Part shown: positions 54,697-56,703 of the stretch, piece by piece | Position numbering within the stretch: position 1 is the first letter of the stretch | Layout of the letters: each line of letters opens with the position of its first letter | DNA from: an uncultured Oscillospiraceae bacterium | GTDB taxonomy: Bacteria > Bacillota > Clostridia > Oscillospirales > Oscillospiraceae | Reading direction: 5' to 3' | Length of the DNA stretch: 64,000 nt | Assembly (NCBI GenBank): GCA_944385415.1 | Contig: CALWXC010000011.1 | Span: forward strand, 1-64,000 | Made by a program: the position numbers and the translations under genes | The notes under the pieces: model-generated | Told to the model about the DNA's origin: nothing | Databases searched by the model: none | The model's input: the letters and a program-made list of their open reading frames with translations, nothing else

Positions 54697-54863
54697 TCTT
54701 TCAGGAAAGTGACCGTGCCGGTCTGCCGAAGGAGTCATACTCTCAGGAATCCCTCCGGGGATGGGACTGAAAGATCGAGGGAACTCTGGAGAATCTCCAA
54801 TGTGGAGTGCCGAAGGTGCAAGACGGCGTCAGCCGTCGAATCTCTCAGGCAAAAGGACAGAGT
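54697..54863 (+). ncRNA. Tandem glycine riboswitch upstream of glyA
   Basis: There are two aptamers. In the first, P1 is TCTTTCAG (54697-54704) with CTGAAAGA (54767-54774), and the conserved core has GCCGAAGGAG and CTCTCAGG. In the second, P1 is CTCTG/CAGAG (about 54784-54788 and 54858-54862), with the core GCCGAAGGTGCAA and CTCTCAGGCAAAAGGACAGA, the classic glycine motif. A terminator-like stem-loop with seven T (54925-54957) lies between the riboswitch and the gene. Glycine binding should change folding of this terminator. Confidence 0.93.
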
Positions 54864-54924
54864 ATCCGGTTGCACCCCCCTGTTATATTCTATTGGTGCA
54901 GTCGCTGCTTTGCATTTCACGTTG

Positions 54925-54983: not shown

Positions 54984-56237
54984 ATGAACAATGCAGCTGT
55001 GGAATCCATCGAATTTGTCCGTTCCTTCGACCCGGAAATTGCCGGTCTCATGGACGAGGAGCTGCGCCGCCAGCGGCGCAACATTGAGCTGATTGCATCG
55101 GAGAACATCACGTCTCAGGCGGTGCTGGCCGCCATGGGCAGCGTGCTGACCAACAAATACGCCGAGGGTCTGCCCGGCAAGCGGTACTATGGCGGCTGTG
55201 AGCATGTGGACGTACTGGAGCAGGTGGCCATTGACCGGGCCAAGGCGTTGTTCGGCGCGGAGTTTGCCAACGTGCAGCCCCATTCCGGCGCCCAGGCCAA
55301 TCTGGCCGTTTACGCGGCGCTGCTGCAGCCCGGCGACGCGGTGGTGGGCATGAGTCTGGAAAACGGCGGCCATCTGACCCACGGCAGCCCCGCCAACCTG
55401 TCCGGCAAGTACTTTGATTTCCACGCCTATGGCGTGGACCCGGCCACGGGCCGCATTGATTACGACGCTGTGGAGGATTTGGTGAAGCGGGTGCAGCCCA
55501 AACTGGTGGTGGCCGGCGCTTCCGCCTATCCCCGTGCGCTGGAGTTTGATAAATTCGCCGATATTGCCCATCGGCACGGCGCCCTTTTGATGGTGGATAT
55601 GGCCCATATCGCCGGTCTGGTGGCCGGCGGCGTCCACCAGAGCCCTGTCCCCTACGCCGATATCGTCACCACCACCACCCATAAGACGCTGCGCGGTCCC
55701 CGGGGCGGCCTGATTCTGGGCCGGGAGGAATTTGCCAAGAAGCTGAATTCCGGCGTGTTCCCCGGCACCCAGGGCGGCCCGCTGATGCACATTATCGCCG
55801 CCAAGGCCGTTTGTCTCAAAGAGGCCATGGCCCCGGAGTTCCGGGCCTACGCCGAAAAGATCGTGTCCAACGCCCAGGTTTTGGCCAAGGCGCTGCTGGA
55901 AAAGGGCTTTGATCTGGTGTCCGGCGGTACCGATAACCATTTGATGCTGGCGGACCTGCGGCCCCTCCATGTGACGGGCAAGGAGTTCCAGACCCGTCTG
56001 GACGATGTCCACATCACCGTCAACAAAAACGCCATCCCCAATGACCCGGAGAAGCCCACCGTCACCTCCGGCGTCCGCATCGGTACCCCTGCGGCCACCA
56101 CCCGCGGTCTGGGCGCGGAGGATATGAAGATCATCGCCGAGTGCATGTACAAAACGGCAGTGGATTACCCGGCAACCCGCGACGCGGTCCGGGCCGCTGT
56201 GGCCGAAATTTGTAAAAAGTATCCCTTGTACGAATAA
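54984..56237 (+). CDS. glyA: Serine hydroxymethyltransferase
   Basis: The 417-residue PLP enzyme has [59 protein letters not shown] and the PLP-lysine motif [14 protein letters not shown] (Lys234). It converts serine and tetrahydrofolate to glycine and methylene-tetrahydrofolate, or runs in reverse. The ATG at 54984 lies nine bases after GGAGA. The glycine riboswitch upstream shows control by glycine; more often this riboswitch controls glycine cleavage or transport. Confidence 0.97.
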
Positions 56238-56280
56238 TGAAAAGTTTTACTCGATTTTTTCAAAAAATTGCAGGGGTCCA

Positions 56281-56423
56281 GGGGGCAGAGCCCCCGGTCG
56301 CCCGCCGCAGCGGGCGAAATACCCGCTGGCCGCAGCCAGCGAAACACCCGCGCCGCGCACGGCGCGAAATCCCCAGTCGTCTAAAGCGCCATCCGCAGAT
56401 GGCGCAATCCCCCGGCGCAGCCG
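56281..56423 (+). repeat. Array of small hairpins with common CGCA loop and constant spacer
   Basis: After a GGGGGC/GCCCCC hairpin (56281-56295) come four stem-loops, each with the loop CGCA: GCCCGC/GCGGGC (56300-56315), GCTGGC/GCCAGC (56325-56340), GCGCCG/CGGCGC (56350-56365) and GCGCCATC/GATGGCGC (56386-56405). A degenerate CGGC-GCA-GCCG follows at 56413-56423. Spacers are GAAATACCC, GAAACACCC and GAAATCCCC. The stems differ but always pair perfectly, while loop and spacer stay the same. The function is unknown. The array directly follows glyA and precedes a terminator. Confidence 0.85.
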
Positions 56424-56425
56424 AA

Positions 56426-56470
56426 GGCCGCCGTCCCCACCCCAACGCTGGTGGCGGACGGCGGCCTTTT
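56426..56470 (+). terminator. Terminator downstream of glyA and the hairpin array
   Basis: GGCCGCCGTCC at 56426-56436 pairs with GGACGGCGGCC at 56456-56466, followed by TTTTGTG. Confidence 0.8.
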
Positions 56471-56483
56471 GTGTACCCCCACC

Positions 56484-56663
56484 GTAGGGCGCGGCATCCT
56501 TGACGCGCCCATATTGCATTACCATCCGGGGCCGTCAGGGATGCCGGCCCCTACGTTTCAGCAGAACTGCACACCGGCAGCGGGGGCAAGCCCCCGCCCT
56601 ACAGAGTGGAACCAATCGGTTTTCTACCGATCGTTCGTAGGGCGCGGCATCCCTGACGCGCCC
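56484..56663. repeat. Interspersed GTAGGGCGCGGCATCC-type palindromic repeats
   Basis: A 27-base unit starting GTAGGGCGCGGCATCC and ending TGACGCGCCC occurs at 56484-56510 and, with one difference, at 56637-56663. A related unit lies in opposite orientation at 56528-56554 (GGCCGTCAGGGATGCCGG then CCCCTAC), and a shorter one ending GCCCTAC at 56582-56602 has GGGGGC/GCCCCC arms. Each can form a hairpin. They look like intergenic interspersed repeats (REP/MITE-like). No gene is seen between 56238 and 56747. Confidence 0.75.
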
Positions 56664-56703
56664 GTGCCGCACCCCATCCAACGGACCAGACCCACACCAA
56701 ACG

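Follow-up and report, generated by a model that had tools for sequence, protein, structure and literature searches.

Downstream of glyA, the window (the whole 64,000-nucleotide stretch of DNA that was analysed) carries a row of hairpins that is probably one member of a non-autonomous, composite repeat family of the BOX/BIME kind, interspersed at high copy number and tolerated at the 3' ends of genes. Short dispersed repeats make up a large share of bacterial intergenic DNA. The present family is apparently undescribed: there is no Rfam model for it and nothing was found in the literature searched. With about 100 or more copies per genome it bears on how non-autonomous repeat families spread and how their perfect pairing is kept up. 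Its small stem alphabet allows exchange, loss and duplication of hairpins to be read as letters, and turnover can thus be counted in a family without a known transposase.

The copy downstream of glyA

The sequence-only reading had described four consecutive stem-loops, starting at 56281 within the 3' region of glyA and ahead of a terminator. The stop codon of glyA ends at 56237, which places the array outside the gene, and the repeat already begins at 56240. It comprises the following modules.

56240..56474, + strand: whole repeat element, downstream of glyA; 91 elements read in two genomes share this order of modules
56240..56271, + strand: head A, AAAAGTTTTACTCGA and an AT-rich hairpin at 56252-56270, based on sequence, fold and cross-genus pair changes
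56273..56299, + strand: lead hairpin K, GGGGTCCAGGGGGC-AGA-GCCCCCGGTC; the genus has about four alleles of it
56300..56324, + strand: unit 1, GCCCGC-CGCA-GCGGGC-GAAATACCC, based on sequence and the genome-wide unit pattern
56325..56349, + strand: unit 2, GCTGGC-CGCA-GCCAGC-GAAACACCC, same basis
56350..56374, + strand: unit 3, GCGCCG-CGCA-CGGCGC-GAAATCCCC, same basis
56375..56413, + strand: end module h with the hairpin GCGCCATC-CGCA-GATGGCGC at 56386-56405, the final array hairpin wherever present
56413..56423, + strand: small hairpin CGGC-GCA-GCCG, based on sequence
56424..56474, + strand: intrinsic terminator, stem 56424-56436 / 56456-56468 followed by TTTTGTG, based on inverted repeat, terminator scan and recurrence with the element

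The three 25-bp units at 56300-56374 share loop and spacer while their paired stems differ, just as had been described. The fourth stem-loop is equally real and has the same CGCA loop but belongs to a separate end module, the flanks of which are unlike those of the units (AGTCGTCTAAA on the 5' side and AATCCCCC on the 3' side). The terminator at 56424-56468 indeed follows the array and recurs together with the element. The RNA of the 236-nt element has a predicted folding energy of -127.7 kcal/mol versus -92.5 +/- 4.5 kcal/mol in dinucleotide shuffles (z -7.9). Covariance model R1, which describes the core of the family (see below), matches at 56240-56324 with 84.8 bits, its sole match in the window. 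A search of the locus against Rfam at gathering and relaxed thresholds matched no family. The Clostridiales-2 RNA, which scored 15.2 against a required 58.6, was checked in 40 genomes, proved absent from the genome of origin and was dropped. Note that a glycine riboswitch aptamer (RF00504, 63 bits) is present upstream of glyA at 54776-54870 of the window.

Copies in the source genome and in related genomes

The repeat is dispersed about 100 times through the source genome (G000), a draft of an Avoscillospira-type member of the Oscillospiraceae. Scanning its 2.63 Mb for the unit pattern (loop, six free bases and GAAAYNCCC) yielded 180 exact matches versus 0 for a backward-read control; the arrangement is therefore not single-copy. 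The family is dispersed and of high copy number. Derivation from a REP array, one of the earlier suggestions, comes close in kind; nothing points to a retron, and no encoded machinery was seen at the locus. Each 25-bp unit consists of a 6-bp stem arm, CGCA, the complementary arm and GAAAYNCCC, and one to six units stand in tandem per array. The order of modules is fixed: head A or B, lead hairpin K, the units, end hairpin h (missing from some copies) and usually a terminator. Among the 91 elements read, 50 end in a terminator of the type found here and 18 in another hairpin, one element having both, and 24 have neither. The stems, which had been taken to be free in sequence, are drawn largely from a short list: six words supply 128 of the 149 exact units, and pairing is perfect in 131 of the 149.

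Head B resembles, as judged by eye, head A with an insertion of about 165 nt that has inverted ends and lies inside the head loop. In the head-B copies (37 elements, e.g. C5:64715-64900 of the source genome) this insert appears MITE-like, and it occurs independently of the lead-hairpin allele. Across 194 elements, head type, the allele of the lead hairpin and the first word show no linkage to one another, which favours frequent exchange over amplification of a few master copies. Chimeric hairpins that combine the arms of two words are present but rare. The density of elements in the source genome is uneven, with 37 units per 100 kb on contig C7, 15 on C1 and 1.7 on C2, which may reflect replication position, gene content or the origin of the contigs. 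A local form without end hairpin and terminator occupies C7:1-36000 (loci L023 and L024); it includes several inverted copies in which the array ends 12-26 bp past the opposite gene's stop codon, and some copies share an extension ahead of the head.

Gene calling relied on a simple script based on codon usage, and counts of placement are accordingly approximate. For 86 elements both neighbours were called; 41 of these lie between convergent genes, 43 between tandem genes and only 2 in divergent regions, which represent 21% of the intergenic length (p = 5e-7 for the avoidance of divergent regions). No element was found inside a called gene. Elements with head A follow a co-oriented upstream gene in 51 of 65 cases; the head starts at a median of 13 bp past the co-oriented stop codon and at 40 bp or less in 43 cases. 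From this position and from its structure, the element is probably transcribed as the 3' end of the upstream gene and terminates the transcript.

The dense unit array was surveyed in 60 related genomes, and high unit counts were confined to one genus (373 in G004, 173 in G002 and 26 in G001, versus 0-8 elsewhere). A looser core of head, lead hairpin and one unit is distributed more widely: a DNA similarity search over 300 genomes of the family matched it in 11, and the covariance model found it in 20 out of 250 genomes of the family and in 11 out of 291 of the class, with at least 15-18 copies per genome in several of the genomes positive by the model. The core is thus patchy, often in high copy, across the Oscillospirales and sparse elsewhere in the Clostridia. 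In three of these genomes (G601, G058 and G462) it often occurs as inverted, outward-headed pairs at about 130-630 bp from start to start; orientation bias towards neighbouring genes is absent in these genomes, and divergent regions are still mostly avoided (2 of 47). No convincing open reading frame was seen in long copies of other genomes among the copies read. Phages and plasmids were searched and gave no matches; a single match to a viral contig was devoid of head and lead hairpin and was read as chance. G462 also harbours hairpins with the constant loop TGCAAGAGA and completely different 10-bp stems (GGAAAATCCC, GGGAACGCCC and GGGGAGGCTC; loci L234, L237 and L240), which represent another family with the same pattern of constant loop and variable stem.

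Turnover and pairing of the hairpins

Comparison of the source genome with its sister species G004 (about 93% identical DNA) revealed several sites at which only one of the two has the element, the other having unrelated DNA or different repeats in its place. At five shared sites compared side by side the arrays differ in every case. Behind glyA, the source genome has GCCCGC-GCTGGC-GCGCCG, G004 has GCCCGC-GCCCCG-GCTGGC-aCCCGC-GCGCCG and G002 has GCCCGt-GCCCCG-GCTGGC-GCGCCG together with a different, exchanged lead-hairpin allele; the element is absent at this place from G001, G003, G005 and G006. In G004 and G002, the spacer that comes first in the source array stands behind the unit that the source lacks. 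The source array therefore has the form expected after deletion of 25 nt between two copies of GGGCGAAA, the direction of change being inferred. Clean empty sites or target duplications were not found between the sister species, which are 6-7% diverged and differ too much at the junctions for a target duplication to be read. Since neither these nor a transposase were found, the evidence for mobility is indirect.

The earlier interpretation had regarded covariation of the stems as a mark of selection on structure. The stems do covary, and those at homologous loci of the sister species are still paired save for one wobble and one outer mismatch. Within the genus, however, stems are copied as whole words, and the step from covariation to selection on structure fails inside this genome for this reason. 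Single-arm stem mutations comprise 13 C>T and 10 G>A changes, so that pair-preserving changes are not preferred, at low statistical power; 34 single-arm changes were left uncorrected, and three doubly changed stems still pair. We conclude that covariation within the genus results mainly from copying of whole hairpins rather than from numerous compensatory mutations that arose independently. This spectrum of mutations, at its low power, does not support selection acting on the RNA of single copies. Copying of cassettes can thus resemble compensatory evolution, and where units are copied within a genome, covariation by itself says little about selection on RNA. Across genera the situation is different. 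Two-sided changes were found at 11 of the 22 pairs of the core (4 of 8 pairs in the hairpin of head A), and 97.9% of cells were paired, versus at most 51% in slid controls; these counts, like model R1, derive from alignment A3, which was built from genome-read sequences only. Covariation at this distance, where the words differ more widely, argues for a structured element.

Pairing could also be a product of mutation rather than selection. Template switching between the arms during replication (quasipalindrome correction) would generate and repair stems; it is an established mechanism and a non-selective source of patterns that mimic compensatory change (PMC8794818). It would be in agreement with the preserved pairing of the doubly changed stems and with the constant-loop, different-stem hairpins of other genomes. 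We nevertheless consider it very improbable as an explanation of the family, because orthologous sites change by whole words from a fixed list along with the spacer and the prefix of the lead hairpin, a pattern that arm-to-arm copying leaves unexplained, and because the single-arm changes stayed uncorrected.

In the assemblies, neighbouring units avoid the same word. Only 2 of 288 adjacent pairs (218 arrays, 506 units) are identical, as compared to 62 expected from shuffles and 59 from shuffles that preserve the length of the array and the position in it; none of the 5000 and 3000 shuffles, respectively, was as low as the observed value. Near-identical neighbours are depleted as well (11 versus 23 expected), identical words two units apart are mildly depleted (17 versus 26), and neighbours of the types GCCCGC and GCCCGT slightly so (11 versus 15.7). 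Three accounts fit this avoidance: rapid loss of perfect direct repeats by slippage, selection for independent folding, and collapse of repeats in short-read assemblies. Near-perfect tandem repeats with a period of 18-60 number just 3 in about 2 Mb of draft genomes. As the drafts hold so few perfect tandem repeats anywhere, assembly collapse is conceivable for identical pairs and could partly produce their avoidance; it offers no explanation for the scarcity of near-identical neighbours or for that of identical words at a distance of two units.

That neighbours are seldom identical or nearly so would also be expected of a host-selected family of functional RNAs in 3' untranslated regions, in which the hairpins act as stable blocks or as binding sites for a protein (loop CGCA, spacer GAAA) and the stems of neighbouring units differ to fold independently. 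The position 3' of genes with fixed polarity, the strong folding, the constancy of loop and spacer and the cross-genus covariation speak for such a function. We regard it as unlikely all the same: pair-preserving mutations are not in excess, presence varies between sister species, including the absence behind glyA in the four genomes named above, and GCCCGC/GCCCGT neighbours, which are capable of cross-pairing, are barely depleted.

Origin of the copies and relation to known repeats

For the tolerated interspersed repeat that we favour, the following scheme is proposed. New copies would arise by recombination or in a manner resembling transposition, and would persist at places where neither promoters nor genes are broken. 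Transcripts reading through from the upstream gene would then form a series of hairpins, each folding on its own, and end at the terminator of the element. Arrays would shed units through slippage between the repeated GGGCGAAA, words and lead hairpins would be swapped with other copies, and identical neighbours would be removed as unstable perfect direct repeats. To the host the element would for the most part be selfish DNA that is tolerated; its effect at the 3' end would be generic (termination, protection against 3' exonucleases) and not that of a specific regulator. It appears quite unlikely to us that hairpins are installed and replaced as cassettes in Clostridia by a dedicated or replication-coupled copying process, beyond ordinary recombination and slippage, in which the constant loop and spacer form a docking sequence, the stem is the exchangeable word and neighbours are kept different.

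A second repeat is found close to the array. GTAG-tagged palindromes with the constant loop GGCATCCYTGAC and stems GCGC or GGCC are located at 56483-56510, 56527-56555 and 56636-56664 of the window and also at C2:75884-76123 of the source genome (locus L031); there are dozens per genome, and they also flank, or sit inside, an open reading frame for a Y1 (IS200-like) transposase. Together these resemble a clostridial REP/RAYT system; Clostridia are not among the groups listed for GTAG repeats (PMC3733652). It is highly improbable that the array itself is a REP/BIME array mobilised by this RAYT-like enzyme. The genome has one Y1 transposase gene and the GTAG palindromes often adjoin the arrays, but no GTAG or CGTC tag stands beside the stems of the units, and the palindromes around the transposase gene, which differ from the units in stem and loop, form a repeat of their own.

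The closest parallel in mechanism is the BOX element of Streptococcus pneumoniae, a boxA-boxBn-boxC composite with separately folding inner modules, over-representation between convergent genes, a strain-variable number of modules and no encoded transposase (PMC3049150). These traits have counterparts in our repeat, which has a constant 5' module, variable tandem inner modules and a constant 3' module (order head-K-u(1-6)-h). The likeness is one of mechanism and not of membership, as host and lengths differ. The sequence is different as well: the inner units measure 25 bp and exchange stems out of a small lexicon, the same word seldom stands twice in succession, a 3' terminator is usual and no inverted ends were seen in the Avoscillospira copies. 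The latter copies also differ from MITEs with structured terminal inverted repeats in bearing a head at the 5' end only. The outward-headed inverted pairs of the core in the three other genomes, with no long open reading frame prominent in the copies read from them, may be comparable to MITEs. REP elements and BIMEs are GTAG- or CGTC-tagged palindromes that form mosaic clusters mostly downstream of genes; their stems vary around conserved loops, and heterodimers are preferred over homodimers without a clear explanation (PMC3733652). The present family is likewise extragenic and chiefly found in convergent or tandem regions. Unlike REPs it has GAAAYNCCC flanking its units instead of an unpaired GTAG or CGTC tag, and unlike BIMEs it arranges direct head-to-tail units between a constant head and a constant tail. 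The rarity of identical neighbours has a parallel in the preference of REPs for heterodimers, which is likewise unexplained.
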